Assembly: GCA_025923995.1 (NCBI GenBank)
Contig: JAICEW010000017.1
Coordinates: forward strand, 1 to 37,318
DNA: 37,318 bases
Origin: Vicinamibacteria bacterium
GTDB lineage: Bacteria; Acidobacteriota; Vicinamibacteria; Fen-336
Direction of reading: 5' to 3'
Made by a program: the position numbers and the translations under genes. The notes below the pieces were generated by a model that saw nothing but the letters and a program-made list of their open reading frames with translations, was not told the origin of the DNA and did no database searches. Shown piece by piece: positions 3,680 to 24,146 of this stretch. The first letter of the stretch is position 1. Each line of letters opens with the position of its first letter.

Positions 3680-6600
3680 ATGAAGACGTTGCTCGCTGCG
3701 GTTGCGGCGATCGCCCTCGCCGCGCCCACCGCCGACGCCGCGCTGCCTCCGAACTTCTTCGACGAGCTGGTGACGAGCGTCGGCTCCCCGACCGCGCTGG
3801 CCTTCACGCCCGACGGGCGCATGCTGATCACGCGCCAGACCGGCTCGCTGCGCGTCTTCAACGGGACACTGCTGGCCACGCCGGCGATCACGTTCCCGAG
3901 CAGCACGATCTGCACGAACTTCGAGCGCGGCCTGCTGGGGGTGGCGGTCGACCCCGCCTTCGCGAGCAACAAGTTCATCTACCTCTTCTACACGCACCGC
4001 GTGGACACGAGCGCCTGTTCGGGGAGCACCACGCCGGTCAACCGCGTGTCGCGATTCGTGCTGCCCGACAGCAACGTGATCGACCCGGCCAGCGAGGTGG
4101 TGCTGATCGACAACATGCCGTCCACCAACGGCAACCACAACGCCGGCGACGTCCAGTTCGGGCCGGACGGCCTGCTCTACGTGAGCGTGGGCGACGGCGG
4201 CTGCGACTACGCGGGCGGGGGGTGCGGCGGCTCGAACGATGCCTCCCGCGACCAGCACACCCTCATCGGCAAGATCCTGCGCATCACCCGCGACGGGAAC
4301 ATCCCCCCTGGCAACCCCTTCCAGGGCGCCGGCACCGCGCGCTGCAACGTGACGGGCGGCACCACGCCCGGCAACAAGTGCCAGGAGACCTTCGCCTGGG
4401 GCCTGCGCAACCCGTTCCGCTTCGCGTTCGACCCCAACGCCGCCGGCGTCCGCTTCTTCATCAACGACGTGGGCCAGACCGACTTCGAGGAGATCGACCT
4501 GGGGCAGGCGGGCGCCGACTACGGCTGGAACTGCCGGGAGGGCTCGGAGATCAACAACACCTCGGGGCCCTGCAGCCCCACCCCCCCGAACATGGTGGGG
4601 CCCGTCTACGAGTACGCGCACGACGAGCAGATCCCCGGCACCACCAGCCCCTCGAGCTGCAACGCCATCACCGGCGGCGCGTTCGTCCCGAACGGGCTGT
4701 GGCCGGGCTACGACGGGGCGTATCTCTTCAGCGACTACACCTGCGGCTGGATCGTGAGGCTCTCGGGAGCGGCCCCGCCCTTCGCCGCCAGCGACTTCGC
4801 GACCAGCCTGGGCGGCGACAGCGCCGTGGCGCTGCTGTTCGGCCCGCGAGAGGGCAGCCAGGCGCTCTACTACACGACCTACTCGGGGGGCGGCCAGATC
4901 CGCCGCATCTACTACGACCAGACGGGCAACAGCCCGCCCACCGCGGTCATCGGCGCCAACCCGCTGTCGGGCTCGCCGCCCCTGAACGTGACCTTCAGCG
5001 CCGCCGGCAGCAGCGATCCCGACCCGGGCGACACGCTCACGTACTTCTGGACCTTCGGCGACGGCTCGCCCGAGACGCAGACGACGGCGATCACCATCCA
5101 GCACTCGTACGGTGCGGCCGGCACCTACACCGCGACCCTGCGCGCGCGCGACAACCACTTCGCGTTCTCCAACCCGGTGACGGTGCAGATCCAGGTGGGG
5201 ACCAACACGCCGCCGGTGCCGACCATCACGTCGCCGGCCGCCGGCGCGCTCTTCAACGTCGGCCAGCTGGTCACGCTGGTGGGCTCGGCCATCGACCAGG
5301 GTCAGCCGCTGCCGCCCAGCGCGCTGTCGTGGCAGGTCCTGCTGCACCACGACACGCACACGCATCCGTTCTTCGGTCCCGCGACGGGCAACAACCTCAC
5401 GTTCACCACGCCCCCGCCCGAGGACCTGCAGGCCGCGACCAACAGCTACCTGGAGATCCGGCTGACCGCGACCGACGGCGGCGGCCTGTCGGCGACCGTG
5501 ACCAGGGACTTCATGCCCCGCAAGGTCAACGTCACGCTCGCGACGGCCCCACCCGGCCTCACCCTGACGGTCAACGCGATCAACAACATGACCGGTCCCA
5601 CCACCTTCGTCTCGTGGGCCAACGCCTCGCTGGCGCTCCAGGCCCAGGACCAGGTGGGGCCGGGCGGCGTCTTCTACACGTTCGACTCCTGGTCGGACGG
5701 CGGGGCCGCGAGCCACACCGTCCTCACGCCGTCCACGGCCGCGACGTTCACCGCCACCTTCGACCCGCTGGCCGCGAACGCGGGGGACGCGGCAGTCGAC
5801 GAGGGCGACGCCGGGACCGTGGTCGCCCAGGTCCCGATCACGCTGTCCGGCAGCTCGCCCTCGACCGTGACCGTCGCCTGGGCCACCGCGGACGGAACCG
5901 CATCGGCCGCCGCCGGCGACTACCTGCCCGCCTCGGGCACCGTCACGTTCGCCCCCGGAGCGACCAGCACGACGGTGCCGGTGACCGTCCAGGGCGACCT
6001 GAGCGGGGAGCTGGACGAGACGGTCCTCCTCCAGCTGTCGGCGCCCACCGCAGCGGTCGTGGGGAACGGGACCGGCGAGCTGCTGATCCGCAACGACGAC
6101 GCGCTGCCGGCTCCCGATCCCGGCTCCGAGCTCGCGCACGGGTCCCTCGTGACCGACGCCCTCCCGACGCAGCCGGGGCCGGTCGAGCAGGTGGACTGGT
6201 ACCGCATCTCGCAGAAGGCGCGCTCGTCGTACGAGGTGGTGCTCGACGCGGCCTCGGGCGACGTGGTGCCGATCTCGCTGGCCCGCGTCGCCGCGGACGG
6301 CACGACCGTGCGCCAGAACTCCGTGTCCGCCGGCATGGGGCCGGCGCGCAGCCTCCGCTGGCAGAACACGACCTCCGCCAGCAACGACACCGAGCTCCTG
6401 CGGGTCCAGAGCGGGACCTGCGGGACCGCCTGCGGGCCCGACGACGTCTACCGGCTGCGCGTGTACGACACGACGTACACGCTGCCGCGCTTCAGCAACT
6501 TCGGGCAGACGACCTTCGTGGTCCTGCAGAACACGCGCAACCACACGGTCGCGGGCACCTTCTACTACTGGAGCCCGTCCGGCACCCTGCTGACCACCAC

Positions 6601-6787
6601 GACGTTCAACATGGCCGCGCGCAGGGTGCTCGTGTTCAAGGTGTCCGACGTGCCCGGGCTGCCCGGGCTCGCCGGATCGATCACGGTCACGAACGACGCG
6701 CCCTACGGGACGCTCGTCGGCAAGGCGGTCTCGGTGGACAGCGCGGGCTTCTCCTTCGACACGCCGAGGGTGCCGCGGCCGAGGTGA
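3680..6787 (+). CDS. Secreted glucose/sorbosone dehydrogenase-type beta-propeller with PKD, Calx-beta and shared C-terminal module
   Basis: 1035 residues. A signal peptide (1-20, ending TADA) precedes a six-bladed GSDH/PQQ-aldose-dehydrogenase-type propeller at about 25-415. Family marks include ERGLLGVAVDPAF, NGNHNAGDVQFGPDG, WGLRNPFRFAFDP, FEEIDL and GADYGWNCREG. A PKD domain follows (about 419-510, WTFGDG), then a beta-sandwich linker region (about 511-695), a Calx-beta domain (about 700-809) and a 219-residue terminal module (817-1035). That module recurs at the end of the FG-GAP protein at 18858-24146. Sugar oxidation is inferred from the propeller, and the remaining domains imply extracellular display. 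The start ATG 3680 has AGAAAGG upstream. The gene ends 4 bp from the convergent regulator gene. Confidence 0.88.
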   Translation: MKTLLAAVAAIALAAPTADAALPPNFFDELVTSVGSPTALAFTPDGRMLITRQTGSLRVFNGTLLATPAITFPSSTICTNFERGLLGVAVDPAFASNKFIYLFYTHRVDTSACSGSTTPVNRVSRFVLPDSNVIDPASEVVLIDNMPSTNGNHNAGDVQFGPDGLLYVSVGDGGCDYAGGGCGGSNDASRDQHTLIGKILRITRDGNIPPGNPFQGAGTARCNVTGGTTPGNKCQETFAWGLRNPFRFAFDPNAAGVRFFINDVGQTDFEEIDLGQAGADYGWNCREGSEINNTSGPCSPTPPNMVGPVYEYAHDEQIPGTTSPSSCNAITGGAFVPNGLWPGYDGAYLFSDYTCGWIVRLSGAAPPFAASDFATSLGGDSAVALLFGPREGSQALYYTTYSGGGQIRRIYYDQTGNSPPTAVIGANPLSGSPPLNVTFSAAGSSDPDPGDTLTYFWTFGDGSPETQTTAITIQHSYGAAGTYTATLRARDNHFAFSNPVTVQIQVGTNTPPVPTITSPAAGALFNVGQLVTLVGSAIDQGQPLPPSALSWQVLLHHDTHTHPFFGPATGNNLTFTTPPPEDLQAATNSYLEIRLTATDGGGLSATVTRDFMPRKVNVTLATAPPGLTLTVNAINNMTGPTTFVSWANASLALQAQDQVGPGGVFYTFDSWSDGGAASHTVLTPSTAATFTATFDPLAANAGDAAVDEGDAGTVVAQVPITLSGSSPSTVTVAWATADGTASAAAGDYLPASGTVTFAPGATSTTVPVTVQGDLSGELDETVLLQLSAPTAAVVGNGTGELLIRNDDALPAPDPGSELAHGSLVTDALPTQPGPVEQVDWYRISQKARSSYEVVLDAASGDVVPISLARVAADGTTVRQNSVSAGMGPARSLRWQNTTSASNDTELLRVQSGTCGTACGPDDVYRLRVYDTTYTLPRFSNFGQTTFVVLQNTRNHTVAGTFYYWSPSGTLLTTTTFNMAARRVLVFKVSDVPGLPGLAGSITVTNDAPYGTLVGKAVSVDSAGFSFDTPRVPRPR

Positions 6788-16743: not shown

Positions 16744-18732
16744 TCAGCGCGCCGTGAACGCGACCCCGATCCGCTCGCCCGTTCGACCCGACACGCGGAA
16801 CGCGACCGAGTCGGGGCCCACCGAGACCACCTCGCCCGAGAGCACGCGCAGGCTTCCGCGCTCCAGCGGGGGCACGCCGGACAGGTCGAAGCGCCACGTG
16901 CCCGGCTTGCCGGCGGCGACGATCTGCGCCTCCAGCCGGTTCTCGCCCGCGGCGGGTGTCACGGCCAGCGCCATGAGGCCGGGCTCCGGCGCCGGGAGCA
17001 TCACGCCGTTGAACATCATCTGGCCGCGCGCACCCGCGACGTCGAACGCGCTGCTGATGCTCGCCGTCCCCGCCGGCGGCTGGGTGAGCTGGTCGAAGAG
17101 GGCACCCACGTTGCGGTCCTGGGACATGATGAGGTTGCAGACGGGGTTGGTGCCGGCGCAGTCGCCGCTGTAGCCGGAGAAGAAGCCGGTCGCGGTGAAC
17201 GCGGTCAGCACGATGGGCTCGCCCGGCGAGTAGTCCGCGGTGCAGACGTTGCCTGGCGGCGGTGCGGACGAGCAGTTCTGGAAGACCGACGGGTTGACGT
17301 TGACGCGGCCCGCACCGCCGGCCTGACCGACGACAGTCAGCGTCAGGCGGAACGTGAGCGGCGCGTTGAACGTCGCGGTCACGTTGCGCGGCCCGTTCAT
17401 CAGGAGGTTGCACGTGAGCCCGGCCGCGGCGGCGCAGTCGCCGCCCCAGCCAGCGAACGTGGAGGCACCCGGCGCGGCGGTCAGCGAGACAGCCGTGCCC
17501 GGGGGGTAGCTCTGGCTGCAGGTGCCGGGGCACGCGATGCCCGATCCGCTCACCGTTCCGGAGCCGGTTCCGGCGAGGGTGACGTTCAGCGGGAAGAGGG
17601 TCGGCGGCGGGTTGAAGGTGGCCGTGACGGTGCGGTCCGCGCTCATCGTGACCTGGCACGGACCCGTCCCCGAGCAGTCGCCGCTCCAGCCGGCGAACGT
17701 GGAGCCGCCGGTGGCCGCCGCGGTCAGCGTCACGCTCGCCCCCGGCTCGTACTGCTCGCTGCAGTCGCCGGGGCAGGCAATGCCGTCCCCGGAGATCGTG
17801 CCCGTTCCGCTCCCCGCCACGTTCGCGCGCAGCTGGAACGCGCTCGCGAGCACCGTGATCGTGCGCGAGCACGGGAGCGCGAGGCTCCCGCTCGTCGCCA
17901 CCACGCGGGCCTCGTAGACGCCGGGCGACGCGTACGTGTGCGACGGGTTGATCTGCGTCGAGCCGTCGCCGTCGCCGAAGGTCCAGACGTAGTCGAAGAC
18001 GCCGTTGCCGCCGCTGGCCTGCGCCCCGAACTTCACCTGCAAGGGCGCGCGCCCCTGCCGCGGGTCGGCCTGGCAGGCGATGTCCGCGGGCGAGCCGGGG
18101 GGCTGCGTGACGGGCGGGTTCGTCACCGGAGGGCTCGTGACCGGGGGCTGTGTCACCGGCGGAGGGATGGGCTCCGGCTCGTCCTCGCCCTTCGCGACGA
18201 GCACCGCCGCGCCGCCGGCCACCACGCCCCCGCCGACGATCGCCGCGGTCGTGCCGACCGCGAGGCCGCCGCCGACCGCGAAGCCCTCGGGCACCGAAGG
18301 GAAGACCGCCGACGGCGGCTGCTTCGAGTACAGGGCGATGACCGGATCGTTCGAGCAATCCGAGTCCTTCGCCACCACGATCGGCTCGTACTCCGGCGTG
18401 CGGCCGGTGTCGAAGTCCTTGCTGGCCGCCTCGACGTAGTACTCGATGTGTTGCCCCACCAGCTTCTTCGTCGGCTTGGGCAGCACGCCCACGTGCCCTA
18501 GCGGCGCCTCCGGCTTCATCTCCACGTAGTACCAGCTGGGGATGCCCTCTGGTCGGAAGTAGACGCGGGGCTGCGCCACTTCCGGCGGCGCGAACTTCGC
18601 CGGCATCTTGCGGTACTTGCCCACCACGATGCACTTGATGGCGGAGTGCTCGATGGTCGGTCCCTCCGCACGGGCGAGGCCGGCCGTGGCGAGCAGCACG
18701 ATGGCCAGGGCGGACGAGCGCAGTGAAGGCAT
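16744..18732 (-). CDS. Secreted PKD / InlB B-repeat protein (paralogue B)
   Basis: 662 residues, the same length and domain order as paralogue A. It has a signal peptide ending LARA, the EGPTIEHSAIKCIV domain, a Gly-rich hydrophobic helix, a PPVTQPP linker, a PKD domain, three InlB B-type repeats, and a tail with LERGSLRVL and GPDSVAFRVSGR. The N-terminal 130 residues are nearly identical between copies, while the third repeat and the start of the tail differ most, which suggests divergence in a binding region. ATG 18732 has AAGGAG seven bases upstream. It is divergent from the giant FG-GAP gene. It ends 93 bp before paralogue A's start, so the two are separate transcription units. Confidence 0.88.
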   Translation of the reverse strand: MPSLRSSALAIVLLATAGLARAEGPTIEHSAIKCIVVGKYRKMPAKFAPPEVAQPRVYFRPEGIPSWYYVEMKPEAPLGHVGVLPKPTKKLVGQHIEYYVEAASKDFDTGRTPEYEPIVVAKDSDCSNDPVIALYSKQPPSAVFPSVPEGFAVGGGLAVGTTAAIVGGGVVAGGAAVLVAKGEDEPEPIPPPVTQPPVTSPPVTNPPVTQPPGSPADIACQADPRQGRAPLQVKFGAQASGGNGVFDYVWTFGDGDGSTQINPSHTYASPGVYEARVVATSGSLALPCSRTITVLASAFQLRANVAGSGTGTISGDGIACPGDCSEQYEPGASVTLTAAATGGSTFAGWSGDCSGTGPCQVTMSADRTVTATFNPPPTLFPLNVTLAGTGSGTVSGSGIACPGTCSQSYPPGTAVSLTAAPGASTFAGWGGDCAAAAGLTCNLLMNGPRNVTATFNAPLTFRLTLTVVGQAGGAGRVNVNPSVFQNCSSAPPPGNVCTADYSPGEPIVLTAFTATGFFSGYSGDCAGTNPVCNLIMSQDRNVGALFDQLTQPPAGTASISSAFDVAGARGQMMFNGVMLPAPEPGLMALAVTPAAGENRLEAQIVAAGKPGTWRFDLSGVPPLERGSLRVLSGEVVSVGPDSVAFRVSGRTGERIGVAFTAR

Positions 18733-18764
18733 GTTCGACTCCTTCGGGGACAGGCGAGAAGTGG

Positions 18765-18793
18765 ACGCTACGCGTTCTGGTAGGGGGTGTCAA
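18765..18793 (-). promoter_or_regulatory. Promoter of paralogue B
   Basis: On the minus strand TTGACA (18793-18788) is separated by 17 bp from TAGCGT (18770-18765). It matches the promoter of paralogue A in both hexamers and adjacent bases, with a spacer one base shorter. The rest of 18733-18857, between divergent genes, shows no clear plus-strand promoter. Confidence 0.72.
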
Positions 18794-18857
18794 CGGTCCG
18801 GCCCCGGTAAGGAAGCGCGCGAAAGCACATCCGCTCAACGCGATGCCAGGGGATGTG

Positions 18858-21800
18858 ATGAGGAGATACCCGGGACGTGCGTCCGGCCTCCCAGTGCCCC
18901 ACTTTCCCTCGAACGGGACAGGGGTGAGCTTGCGAGATCTGGCGCGTGCGAGTCGGCACGGGGTGTTCCTGCATGGTCTGCTGCTGGCGGCGCTGGCCAG
19001 CGGCACGACGAAGGCGACGGTGACGTCGACGGAACCATCGCCTTTGTCCGCAAGAGTGCCTCCGGCGCCGCAGGGAGTCACCTTCGTCAACAGCGGCCAG
19101 TTCCTCGGTGGTGAGACGGGGAACGGGGTTGCGCTGGGGGACCTCGACGGCGACGGCGACGTCGACGCCATCGTCGCCAACGGGGACACGCCGTCGCAGG
19201 CGTCCGAGAACCCGTCGGGTGGCGCGAGCCGCGTCTGGCTCAACGACGGACGCGGTCTTTTCGCGGAGGGGGACGAGCTGGGGCCCTTCGGTGCCAACGG
19301 CGTCGCGTTGGCCGATCTCGACGGAGACGGCGACCTGGACGCGGTCACCGCGGGAGGGTTCTCCTATGCCTGGCTCAACTCGGGCTCTGGGCAGTTCGAC
19401 AACGGCCCGTCGTTCGGAGGGATCGGGACCGGACACGGCGTCGCCCTGGGTGACGTGGACAACGACGGCGACGTGGACGCCGTCGTTGTCGGCAACGGCG
19501 GCCGTGTCTTCCTGAACGACGGCAAGGGCACGTTCCAGGCCGGCCCCGTCCTGTCGTTCCTCTTCAGCCGGTCGGCGGTGGTGGTCGACCTGGACGCGGA
19601 CGGCTGGCAGGACGTCGCGGTCGCGGACGCCGCCGAGGGAACCTCGAACCGCGTCTTCTGGAACGACGGCAACTGGACGCCCGGACCGGGGTCGTTCACC
19701 CCCGGCGCCGCGCTGCCGACCACCAACCTGATGGTCCGCGTCGCGGTCGCGAACCTGGACGGCGACGCGCGGCCGGACATCTTCCTGGCCGGGCTCGGCC
19801 CGGACCAGGTCTACTGGAACGAGGGCTCCCGCACCTTCAGCACCAAGGGGGCGTTCGCGACCGTCGACAGCAGCTGGGCGCTCGCGCTGGGAGACGTGGA
19901 CGGCGACGGGAACGTCGACGCCGTCGTCGGCAACATCACGGCCGAGCCCAATCGCCTCTGGCACAACGAGGGCGGCCGGGTCTTCGCGGTCACGCAGGAG
20001 TTCGGCGACGAGACCGGCCTCTACTGGTCGCGCGGCCTGGGGATGGCGGAGCTCAACGGCGACGGCGCGATCGACCTGTTCGAGGCGACCACCGCGGACG
20101 ATCACGTCTGGTTCAACACCTCGCCGCCGGTCCTGCCGCCGCAGGAGGGCTGGCAGCGCCAGACCCTCGACGATCGCGGCGACGTCGGGTACGCCGCCGC
20201 CCTCGCCCTGGATGGGAGCGGCCATCCCCACGTCGCCTATTTCGCGGCCCGCGCGGTCGGAGTGGACGATGCGCAGCGCTACGTCTTCGAGTACCGGCTG
20301 CGGTACGCACGCTGGGACGGCCTGCGCTGGCACCGGGAGGACGTCCCGACCGGCCTGGCCTCCGGCCCGTTCCTCGGCGAGGCGTCGCTGGCGGTGGACC
20401 CGAGCGGGCGTCCGCACATCGTCTACGAGCCGCTGACGTCGGACCCGCCGCGCTACGTGTACTGGGATGGATCCCAGTGGGTTCGCGAGGACCTGTTCCC
20501 GACGCAGGACAGCATCCGTTTCTCGGTGAAGGTCGACGCGAACGGGACCCACCTCAGCTACGTGCGCGGCGCCTCCCTGGGGGCTCCGGCGGAAGTCCGA
20601 TACGCCCTTCGCGGGGGCTCGGGCTGGCAGGAGGAGGTGGTCGACACGACGCACGAGGCGTCGCGCAATACGTCGCTCGCGCTGGATGCCGGCGGCGGCC
20701 CGCACGTCACCTGGACCGACTGCGCCACGCCTGCCTGCTCGTCCCTCGTGGCGAAGTACGCGCGCAAGTCGAACGGCGCCTGGCAGCCGGAGCGGGTCGG
20801 AGGCCCCGTCTTTAGCTTCGGCGGCACGACGCCGGGCGCGTCCCTGGCGCTCGACGCGACGGGCCGCCCGCACGTCGGCTTCGTGCGCGAGACCGGTGGC
20901 GCACCGTCGCACCTCACCTACGCGACACGCGTCGGCTCCACGTGGGCCCTCCAGGACGCGGTGCAGTCGTACTACCTCACCACGTTCGCGATCGACGTGG
21001 ACTCGGCCGGGAGCCCCCACTTCTTCTACCGGCAGCTGCTGGTCGCGAACGGCAACGACTTCAGCCACGCGCGGCTCACGGGGACCGCATGGCAGCACGA
21101 GACGGTCGACGTGAGCCGCAACGCGGACCATGGGACGTCCGCGGCCGTCGGCATGCAGCTCGACGCGAACGACGACCTCCACGCCGCCTACCAAGAACCG
21201 GAGTTCAAGGACCTGCGCTACGTGTCCTGGGCCGCCGACTGGCAGACTCGTGCCCTGCCGGAAACGGGAAGCGCCCGGGCCCCCTCGATCGACGTCGAGG
21301 ACACGATCCCCCACATCGGCTACCACGCCGTCACCAAGGGGCAGGTCAAGCTCGCGAGCGCCGTGAACGGCTGGGACCTCGATCCGCTGGACAGCGTCGC
21401 CGCTCCCGTCACCGACCTGTCGGTCGAGGCCGCCAGCCTCCAGCACGTCAGCTATTACGACGCCGACGACACGCGGCTGATCTACGCGTACCGCGACGCC
21501 TCCGGGAGCTGGCACCCGGAAGTGGTGGACGAGGCGGGCGACGTCGGCAGCCACAACGAGCTGGTGCTCGTCGGAGGCGCAGACGCCTCGCCGCGGATCG
21601 CCTACTGGGATGCCACGAGCCGGCGCGTGAAGCTCGCCGTCCCCGTGCCCAGCTCGGTGCTGTGGGACATCTACCCCAACAACGCGGGGCCGCCCCAGGG
21701 CGCCACCAGCGGCCCGCTCTCCGCGTCCGTTCTCGCGGAGGGCGACGTCGGCGTGTCCTACTACGACGGCGCAAGCGGGGACTTGCGCCTGGCCGTCTGG

Positions 21801-24146
21801 GACGGGGGCACCTGGACATGGACGGACGAGCTGGTCGACGGAGCGGGCGACACCGGCAGGCTGAGCTCGCTCCAGACCGACGGCGACGGCACACCGGTCG
21901 TCGCCTATGTCGCTCCGGGTGGTATCCGGATGGCCTACAAGGTGGGCGGGACCTGGCAATCCCAGGACGTTCCCGGCACGGGCGGCGCGCCGGTGACGAG
22001 CCTCGCGCTCGAGCTGGGCCTCAACTCGCGGCGCCACGCCCGCATCGCGTACACCAGGGCCGGCGCGCCGCTGCAGGCTGCCGAGCTGCGCGGCGGCATC
22101 TGGACGACGCGGGTGGTCGCTCCCCTCGGCGCGGCCGCCCCGGCGGAGGTTTCCGGAGCCCGCGACGGCCGCCTTCACCTGGCCTACACGCGGGGCGGCG
22201 CGCTCCAGTACGCGTTCCGCACCGCCAACCTGGACGTCGACCTCGCGGCTCCGTCGCCGCCGCCGCCTTCGTACTTCGAGGCGCCCTACAACCCGCTCGA
22301 CGCGTGGCAGGCCGGGCTGGGCGAGTACACGGGAAAGCGCGCCTCCGGGCGGCGGCCGGCCTCCCGCGCCTCGCGTGTCGCGGGAGGCCTGATCGGCAGC
22401 CTGCTCACCGACAACGAGGTCATCGGAGGCCTGGCGCCCCTCTTCGGCGCGACGACGGGAGGTCAGCACTTCGTGGACCTCTACTTCCAGCACGGGACCG
22501 AGATGGGACGCATCGGCCTGGACGATCCCCTGCTGCTCTGGGACGCCTACGGCACGCTGCAGAACTTCCTGCCGGGCCTGGAGGCCCTCCTCACCGGCCA
22601 CGGCGACGAGGTGGTCGTGACGCAGCGGATGGTCGACGACGCGCGCTCCGTGTGGCAGCGGCTGGCCGCGGCGGGCAGCCCCCAGCTGGCGGCCGCGATC
22701 CAGACGGAGCTGGTCCGGTTCAACGGCCTGCAGGACTTCGTGGACCTGACGTTCGACGAGTGGGCCGAGGCCATCGGCGTCGCTCCTCCGAGGGTGCTGC
22801 TCGCCGGTGACGCGCTGGCGATCGAGGGCAACGGCGCCGCGGTGAGCGCGCTGTTCGAGGTGCGACTCTCCACGCCGGGGACGCAGCCGGTCCTGGTCGA
22901 CTACGCCACCGTGGACCAGACGGCCGTGGCGGGCGTCGACTACACGACGGTGTCGGGCACCTTGACGTTCGCGGCGGGCGCCGGCGTGGCCACCCTCTCC
23001 GTCCCCGTCCTCGGCGACACCGTGGTGGAAGGGAACGAGACCTTCGCGCTCCAACTCACGAACGCGGTGGGCGCGTCGCTCGGCGACGCGCAGGGGACGG
23101 GCGCGATCACCGACGACGACGCGACGCCCGCCCTCTTCGTCCAGGACACCGGCGTCGTGGAGGGCGACGGCGGGACGAAGGACATGACGTTCACGGTGCG
23201 GCTCACCGCTCCACACGGGCTGCCGGTGACCACTTCCTTCGCGACGGCCGACGGCACCGCCACCGCACCGCTCGACTATGCGGCCGCGACGGGCACGCTC
23301 ACCTTCCCACCCGGCACGACCGCGAGGCCCGTGGCCGTGGCCGTCATTTCCGACTACCTCGAAGAGCCGGTCGAGACGCTCCGGCTCGACCTCGCCAGCC
23401 CGCAGAACGCGACGGTGCTCGACGGCCAGTCCGTCGGGGCCATCGTCGACGACGACTCGCGCTACGTGGGCGAGCTGTCGCACGGGCACGACGCGCGTGC
23501 CGACATGGCGGCCCTTCCCGGACCGGTGGTCCGCGAGCGCTACCACCGGATGCGCCAGGAGCCGCGCTCCTCGTACGAGGTCGTGCTGGACGAGGCCTCC
23601 GGGGACCTGGCGGGCCCCGCCGGCCCCCGTCTCGAGCGTCTCGGGCCTGACGGCTCGACCATCCTCCAGAGCTCGCGGCCCGCCGGCGCGGGCCCGGCTC
23701 GCAGCCTCCGCTGGCAGAACACGGGAAGCGCCGCGGTCACCGACGAGATCGTCCGCGTGGCCAGCGCAGGGTGCACCACGGACTGCGGCGTCGACGACAC
23801 GTATCGCCTGCGCGTCTACGAGACGACGGGCCGGCTGCCGCGCTTCAACAACGTGGGCTCCCAGGTGACCGTGGTACTGCTCGAGAACCGCGGGGCCGAA
23901 GACGTGTCGGGCGTGCTCTGGTTCTGGTCCGCGAGCGGGGCTCCACTCGCCAGCCGACCGTTCGCGCTCGTGCCTCGCGCGACGCTCTCGCTCAACAGCT
24001 CGACCGTCCCCGGCCTGGCCGGGCAGGGCGGCTCGGCGACGGTCTCGCACGACGGCCCCCATGGCTCCCTCGCCGGCAAGGCGGTGGCCCTGGAGCCGGC
24101 CACAGGGCTCGCTTTCGACACGCCCCTCGAGCTGCGGCCCCGCTAG
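18858..24146 (+). CDS. Giant secreted FG-GAP/VCBS propeller, Calx-beta protein with shared C-terminal module
   Basis: About 1762 residues. Seven FG-GAP/VCBS-type blades with calcium-loop signatures (such as DLDGDGDVDA and DVDNDGDVDA) lie at about 65-425, enough for one integrin-like propeller. Residues about 431-1128 repeat a LALDxxGxPHVxY motif in sialidase/BNR-like blades. Residues about 1143-1310 are a helical region containing GGQHFVDLYFQHG. Two Calx-beta domains follow (about 1313-1422 and 1423-1533), then a 224-residue terminal module (1539-1762) shared with the secreted dehydrogenase at 3680-6787. It is likely an adhesin or surface protein. The start is uncertain: ATG 18858 has AGGGG upstream, while GTG 18924 gives a more standard signal peptide. 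Confidence 0.82.
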   Translation: MRRYPGRASGLPVPHFPSNGTGVSLRDLARASRHGVFLHGLLLAALASGTTKATVTSTEPSPLSARVPPAPQGVTFVNSGQFLGGETGNGVALGDLDGDGDVDAIVANGDTPSQASENPSGGASRVWLNDGRGLFAEGDELGPFGANGVALADLDGDGDLDAVTAGGFSYAWLNSGSGQFDNGPSFGGIGTGHGVALGDVDNDGDVDAVVVGNGGRVFLNDGKGTFQAGPVLSFLFSRSAVVVDLDADGWQDVAVADAAEGTSNRVFWNDGNWTPGPGSFTPGAALPTTNLMVRVAVANLDGDARPDIFLAGLGPDQVYWNEGSRTFSTKGAFATVDSSWALALGDVDGDGNVDAVVGNITAEPNRLWHNEGGRVFAVTQEFGDETGLYWSRGLGMAELNGDGAIDLFEATTADDHVWFNTSPPVLPPQEGWQRQTLDDRGDVGYAAALALDGSGHPHVAYFAARAVGVDDAQRYVFEYRLRYARWDGLRWHREDVPTGLASGPFLGEASLAVDPSGRPHIVYEPLTSDPPRYVYWDGSQWVREDLFPTQDSIRFSVKVDANGTHLSYVRGASLGAPAEVRYALRGGSGWQEEVVDTTHEASRNTSLALDAGGGPHVTWTDCATPACSSLVAKYARKSNGAWQPERVGGPVFSFGGTTPGASLALDATGRPHVGFVRETGGAPSHLTYATRVGSTWALQDAVQSYYLTTFAIDVDSAGSPHFFYRQLLVANGNDFSHARLTGTAWQHETVDVSRNADHGTSAAVGMQLDANDDLHAAYQEPEFKDLRYVSWAADWQTRALPETGSARAPSIDVEDTIPHIGYHAVTKGQVKLASAVNGWDLDPLDSVAAPVTDLSVEAASLQHVSYYDADDTRLIYAYRDASGSWHPEVVDEAGDVGSHNELVLVGGADASPRIAYWDATSRRVKLAVPVPSSVLWDIYPNNAGPPQGATSGPLSASVLAEGDVGVSYYDGASGDLRLAVWDGGTWTWTDELVDGAGDTGRLSSLQTDGDGTPVVAYVAPGGIRMAYKVGGTWQSQDVPGTGGAPVTSLALELGLNSRRHARIAYTRAGAPLQAAELRGGIWTTRVVAPLGAAAPAEVSGARDGRLHLAYTRGGALQYAFRTANLDVDLAAPSPPPPSYFEAPYNPLDAWQAGLGEYTGKRASGRRPASRASRVAGGLIGSLLTDNEVIGGLAPLFGATTGGQHFVDLYFQHGTEMGRIGLDDPLLLWDAYGTLQNFLPGLEALLTGHGDEVVVTQRMVDDARSVWQRLAAAGSPQLAAAIQTELVRFNGLQDFVDLTFDEWAEAIGVAPPRVLLAGDALAIEGNGAAVSALFEVRLSTPGTQPVLVDYATVDQTAVAGVDYTTVSGTLTFAAGAGVATLSVPVLGDTVVEGNETFALQLTNAVGASLGDAQGTGAITDDDATPALFVQDTGVVEGDGGTKDMTFTVRLTAPHGLPVTTSFATADGTATAPLDYAAATGTLTFPPGTTARPVAVAVISDYLEEPVETLRLDLASPQNATVLDGQSVGAIVDDDSRYVGELSHGHDARADMAALPGPVVRERYHRMRQEPRSSYEVVLDEASGDLAGPAGPRLERLGPDGSTILQSSRPAGAGPARSLRWQNTGSAAVTDEIVRVASAGCTTDCGVDDTYRLRVYETTGRLPRFNNVGSQVTVVLLENRGAEDVSGVLWFWSASGAPLASRPFALVPRATLSLNSSTVPGLAGQGGSATVSHDGPHGSLAGKAVALEPATGLAFDTPLELRPR

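Follow-up and report, generated by a model that had tools for sequence, protein, structure and literature searches.

A C-terminal double-sandwich module on many secreted proteins of a Vicinamibacteria genome, with a possible role as a docking tag

The ASRT/ASRAH superfamily, described by De Souza and colleagues, has a sandwich fold of eight strands, in which strand 2 ends in a near-absolute Asn (PMC2739507). Its members are predicted to bind sugars, and TM1070 is tetrameric (PMC2739507). In the T9SS, the export signal lies in the last 22 residues of the cargo, and export fails when the last residues are replaced (PMC4804311, PMC11285876). PPC/collagen-binding domains (PF04151; ColG s3b, 5SV5) form another beta-sandwich group found in the C-terminal region of secreted proteins. 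Here, we compare these systems with a C-terminal module encoded twice in the window, a stretch of 37,318 nucleotides from a Vicinamibacteria bacterium (GCA_025923995.1, contig JAICEW010000017.1).

The module in the window and in the host genome

The initial annotation had proposed that two proteins encoded in the window (Table 1) end in a common module. The proposed regions translate, the sequence blocks quoted for them are present, and the two copies match over their full length with 51% identity (E 1.7e-59). Translation places a stop codon directly behind each module (module 1, 6128-6784, stop 6785-6787; module 2, 23472-24143, stop 24144-24146).

Table 1. Features of the two module-carrying genes in the window
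Feature	Position	Strand	Basis or remark
Gene 1: secreted GSDH-type beta-propeller, PKD, Calx-beta and terminal module	3680..6787	+	start inferred from signal peptide MKTLLAAVAAIALAAPTADA
Gene 1 predicted signal peptide	3680..3739	+	rule-based scan
Calx-beta domain immediately upstream of module 1	5819..6055	+	Pfam PF03160
Module 1 first half: PPC/collagen-binding-like beta-sandwich with CX3C	6128..6478	+	approximate border, by alignment to module 2 and module 2 model
Module 1 second half: TM1070/ASRT-like beta-sandwich, ending GFSFDTPRVPRPR-stop	6479..6784	+	alignment; module 2 model
Gene 2: FG-GAP repeats, BNR-like region, two Calx-beta domains, terminal module	18723..24146	+	start uncertain
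Gene 2 signal-like hydrophobic segment	about 18924-19000	+	
Calx-beta domain immediately upstream of module 2	23118..23435	+	Pfam PF03160
Module 2 first half, residues 1-117: PPC/collagen-binding-like fold	23472..23822	+	predicted structure
Module 2 second half, residues 118-224: eight-stranded TM1070/ASRT-like sandwich, ending LAFDTPLELRPR-stop	23823..24143	+	predicted structure

A search of the host genome (6.8 Mb, 592 contigs) with module 2 as query retrieved a family of 62 copies with E values from 1.5e-147 to 7e-25, and the flanking DNA of all 62 matches was taken. A stop codon lies 0-5 residues past the match in all 61 copies with the end present; the remaining copy has lost its end at a contig border. 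No internal copy was found among the 62 matches, in agreement with the proposal of a portable, strictly C-terminal module on otherwise unrelated proteins. The consensus of the family ends in GKAVALEPATGFSFD(S/T)PM.PRPR. Six module genes lie on one contig (G000:C7; L069, L070). At C7:32892-33542, an in-frame TGA just before the last residue trims the tail to ...DSPMIAR. Contamination as a source of the copies is unlikely, as they are found on about 50 contigs, long ones included, and the genome is rated 97% complete and 2% contaminated.

The family includes 43 copies fused to diverse secreted proteins and 16 stand-alone-type paralogues. Where the start is visible, a simple rule predicts a signal peptide for most carriers, which supports the expectation that the carriers are secreted. 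Among 58 full carrier proteins, Pfam assigned Calx-beta to 27 and DUF11 to 15, and beta-helix, CARDB, FG-GAP, GSDH (three carriers), M4 and M10 peptidase and other domains were also identified. Laminin-G and P-domain add to this cargo diversity, and the sugar-dehydrogenase propellers are of the GSDH type. Two generalizations drawn from the window copies need adjustment at the genome scale. The Calx-beta domain placed directly before the module is present in both window copies, but it precedes the module in only 28 of the 43 fused copies, with a DUF11-like domain in the other 15 (calls from Pfam and visual judgement on the 110 residues before the module). The CX3C pair, described as invariant, is present but only near-invariant (41/43 cargo-fused copies). 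Conversely, 29 of the 34 Calx-beta reading frames in the host genome contain the module; among the five module-free frames, four have an internal Calx-beta domain and one (C34) ends in Calx-beta.

The stand-alone-type copies mostly consist of a signal peptide, 15-30 residues and the module, and in many the mature N-terminus is D-V-W-D. C202 has a plastocyanin domain between signal peptide and module. Stand-alone copies were recorded for C262, C157, C256, C443, C435, C241 and others, some of them paired (C443). The stand-alone module proteins are possible partners or competitors of the fused copies.

Predicted fold, known relatives and distribution

Neither Pfam-A nor NCBIfam has a family that names the module in the window proteins and genome copies scanned, consistent with the initial view that it is unnamed. 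DUF5719 (PF18986) gave sub-threshold matches to the second half of three copies (best E 1.2e-4), with a best score of 21.7 bits, below the curated cut-off of 26.2 bits. A sequence search of solved structures with the module returned no match. The structure model, built from 58 own copies, shows two beta-sandwiches with a mean pLDDT of 94.8. The model of residues 1-118 resembles PPC/collagen-binding domains (1nqj, Z 11.1; 5sv5, Z 10.9) and also matches the DeCLIC N-terminal domain (Z 11.9). The best match of residues 118-224 is Thermotoga TM1070 (1nc7; Z 13.2, rmsd 2.4, 103 of 117 residues), and the Anabaena sensory rhodopsin transducer is also matched (Z 9.3). For a distant relative belonging to a different family of the class (model pLDDT 82), the top fold matches are again TM1070 (Z 12.0) and collagen-binding/PPC domains. 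On these models, both halves have known folds, PPC/collagen-binding-like and TM1070/ASRT-like. Both fold lists further contain SIDT1, SIDT2 and SID-1, whose paired ectodomains can be superposed on the two-sandwich tandem across some 170 residues (Z about 8, rmsd 6-7); this may reflect no more than a common arrangement.

The second half of the module shares with the ASRT/ASRAH superfamily (TM1070, 1NC7; PF07100) its eight strands, and N139, conserved in 42/43 copies as the last residue of strand 132-139, corresponds to the strand 2 Asn site. However, the strand-1 Trp is absent, with position 120 being mostly G/Y/L/A and R124-F125 conserved instead. The His and Cys of the TM1070 pocket (which precede the conserved Asn by 7 and 3 residues) are also replaced, module residues 132 and 136 being mostly V/I and L/V/I, respectively. 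A further difference is the context of the module half, which follows a PPC-like domain in the same chain and forms the C-terminus of secreted proteins. The PF07100 profile had no match to the module in the Pfam scans. A profile-profile comparison with ASRT, whose template held only three ASRT sequences, was not significant (hhalign E 0.08-0.1). Because the fold and N139 fit but the Trp, the pocket His/Cys and a significant profile match are absent, the modelled second half is ASRT-like and not an ASRT member. The first half has the PPC/collagen-binding fold and, like such domains, lies in the C-terminal region of secreted proteins. It differs in being fixed to a second sandwich and in the CX3C pair, and the PF04151 profile gave one weak match among 58 copies (E 0.042, not over the cut-off).

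The T9SS is closest to the module in logic, but the module is not a T9SS domain by profile. Like the T9SS C-terminal sorting domains (TIGR04183, TIGR04131), the module is a C-terminal beta-sandwich structure found on many unrelated secreted cargos, with a conserved extreme C-terminus; it is terminal in 61/61 copies, and its visible-start carriers mostly have rule-predicted signal peptides. In contrast to those domains, it spans about 220 residues and two sandwiches and has a different best fold match. Among the T9SS sorting-domain profiles, the best NCBIfam match in the two window proteins and 26 second halves was TIGR04183 (E 0.087, one member), and Pfam gave none. The seven-strand Ig-like T9SS fold is not in the fold lists, an absence that excludes nothing; the best match of the second half is the eight-stranded TM1070. 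The SprA profiles (PF14349, TIGR04189) retrieved no candidates from the host genome and were equally silent in control genomes. Secretins related to type II/IV systems are present in the host genome, below the GspD cut-off.

The module was found in none of 13 species of the same family and in none of three species of the same order. In a class sample of 193 species, only four genomes besides the host have clear distant relatives. These are short reading frames that stand alone, and most carry a similar GLSFD-type motif close to the C-terminus. Beyond these, matches in a phylum sample of 396 were weak and fell mostly in the second half. When 84,980 species genomes were scanned twice for conserved peptides of each half, no relative was confirmed; these scans require exact short motifs and would miss distant relatives. 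A plasmid collection contained no module. In these searches the module is not widespread: apart from a handful of distant stand-alone relatives elsewhere in the class, it is essentially confined to the host genome. The gene 1 orthologue of a same-family relative shares 63% identity over the first 510 residues and then continues with FG-GAP-like repeats and no module. Two own paralogues of gene 1 (43%) have other domains at the end and lack the module. In other families of the phylum, tandem sandwiches of the form PHYADGGGWTTQIVLINSTDSDIAGVVQF (L117 in G526, L115, L090 and similar) match the second half weakly and are probably related ASRT-like repeats. Three adjacent genes for distant stand-alone relatives were observed in a genome of another family (L084/L095, G090:C150).

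Phylogeny and the R-x-R carboxyl end

A module tree was built from 59 own copies and five outgroup rows, with deep forks that are poorly resolved. One clade holds all 43 fused copies with support of 98/92, and the 16 stand-alone-type copies fall outside. Because of this arrangement, the tree is most simply read as a single capture by a cargo, followed by spread. The preceding domain type changes 6-7 times on the fused-copy tree versus 12.6 times expected by shuffling, suggesting that the preceding domain is partly inherited with the module and partly swapped between Calx-beta and DUF11 contexts. The median end branch length is 0.59-0.71.

Within the fused clade, the median pairwise identity is 48%. 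R222 and R224 are each R in 40/43 fused copies, while positions 220, 221 and 223 vary. Basic residues occupy positions -1 and -3 in 38/42 fused copies with an unbroken tail (originally 39/43; C7:32892 was excluded for the TGA before its last residue), compared to 2/16 stand-alone copies and 9/259 other predicted genes. The pair follows the last strand (213-218), and in 53/58 copies 10 residues separate that strand from the stop. The fixed end of the module is partly explained by the fold, because the last conserved motif, GFSFD, is the final strand; this does not explain the R-x-R-COOH pair, which is kept only in the cargo-fused clade. Shared descent contributes to the conservation seen in the alignment, yet neighbouring columns have changed. 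R-x-R could be inherited instead of selected, although the branches are long.

Possible roles of the module

Overall, the initial interpretation, a portable terminal module that might anchor, sort or assemble proteins at the cell surface, is partly supported. We consider the chances about even that the module is a C-terminal docking tag, sending or holding many cargos at one extracellular place. The cargo would leave the cytoplasm by its N-terminal signal peptide, as the simple rule suggests, and its last 220 or so residues would fold as the two beta-sandwiches, a structure predicted with high confidence. A putative partner common to all cargos would then recognize the second sandwich at its exposed end, where the basic R-x-R carboxyl terminus lies, and would either retain the cargo on the cell surface or in the matrix outside the cell, or pass it across the outer membrane. 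The tag may have originated from a stand-alone secreted protein of the type still present in 16 copies. On the evidence of the tree, a cargo would have acquired it in a single event, downstream of a Calx-beta or DUF11-type stalk domain, and it would then have spread over about 45 cargos within the lineage. No partner, receptor, protease or translocon for the module was identified, which counts against a docking tag. Among 333 predicted genes around module copies, no recurrent neighbour was found that could serve as a partner, which fits clients whose system is encoded at another locus. Export in general does not need the module, because both host paralogues of gene 1 look secreted despite lacking it. 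The preference for two preceding domain types also counts against docking, as it might stem from recombination that spreads a larger block with no sorting role. It is unlikely that the module defines a new C-terminal sorting system, independent of the T9SS, in which a dedicated receptor or translocon would read the PPC and ASRT-like module ending in R-x-R-COOH and deliver about 45 cargos to the surface.

The docking tag overlaps with three other explanations, and docking is preferred. Retention by glycan binding, in which the second sandwich would bind a sugar of the own capsule or matrix and the first half would add matrix affinity in the manner of collagen-binding/PPC domains, with no dedicated sorting machine, is possible but somewhat doubtful. 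The fold matches to TM1070 and to ColG/PPC domains (Z 10-11), repeated in the distant relative, are consistent with it, as is the argument for sugar binding and tetramers in the ASRT superfamily (PMC2739507), but the pocket His and Cys of TM1070 are replaced and a conserved R-x-R carboxyl end is not predicted by sugar binding. The tetrameric state of TM1070 (PMC2739507) also bears on a self-assembly or cap domain, in which the second sandwich would oligomerize cargos into a surface layer or fibre. In the cargos, Calx-beta, DUF11 and FG-GAP domains follow one another in long chains, and stand-alone copies could act as assembly partners; still, we regard this role as improbable. An outer-membrane export signal resembling the T9SS C-terminal domain, with a translocon reading the fold and the last residues and later cleavage possible, shares with the T9SS the beta-sandwich, the extreme C-terminus and the many cargos; in the T9SS the last residues are essential (PMC4804311, PMC11285876), and R-x-R-COOH conserved only in the cargo-fused clade fits this logic. 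It is unlikely, too, given the unmatched sorting-domain models, the lack of a SprA candidate in the genome, where the controls are silent too, and the best fold match to TM1070 and not to an Ig-like T9SS domain.

Neutral proliferation of a readily duplicating and shuffling block with no common function would suit the restriction to one lineage and the swaps between Calx-beta and DUF11 contexts. However, specific positions are strongly conserved at 34-88% pairwise identity, and the R-x-R end is conserved position by position with a fixed tail length, making this explanation very unlikely.

About 60 proteins of one species with a terminal module that family relatives lack, and that was apparently taken from a stand-alone protein in one step, offer a rare view of the birth of a sorting or anchoring tag. 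Should a partner read the R-x-R end, the module would represent a second, independently evolved C-terminal targeting route and would mark a large set of the host's secreted proteins that are otherwise unannotated. A recurrent C-terminal end was also observed in module-free beta-helix-like proteins on C35 and C231 of G000 (L198, L201), which end in DIGAIER or DVGAFER.
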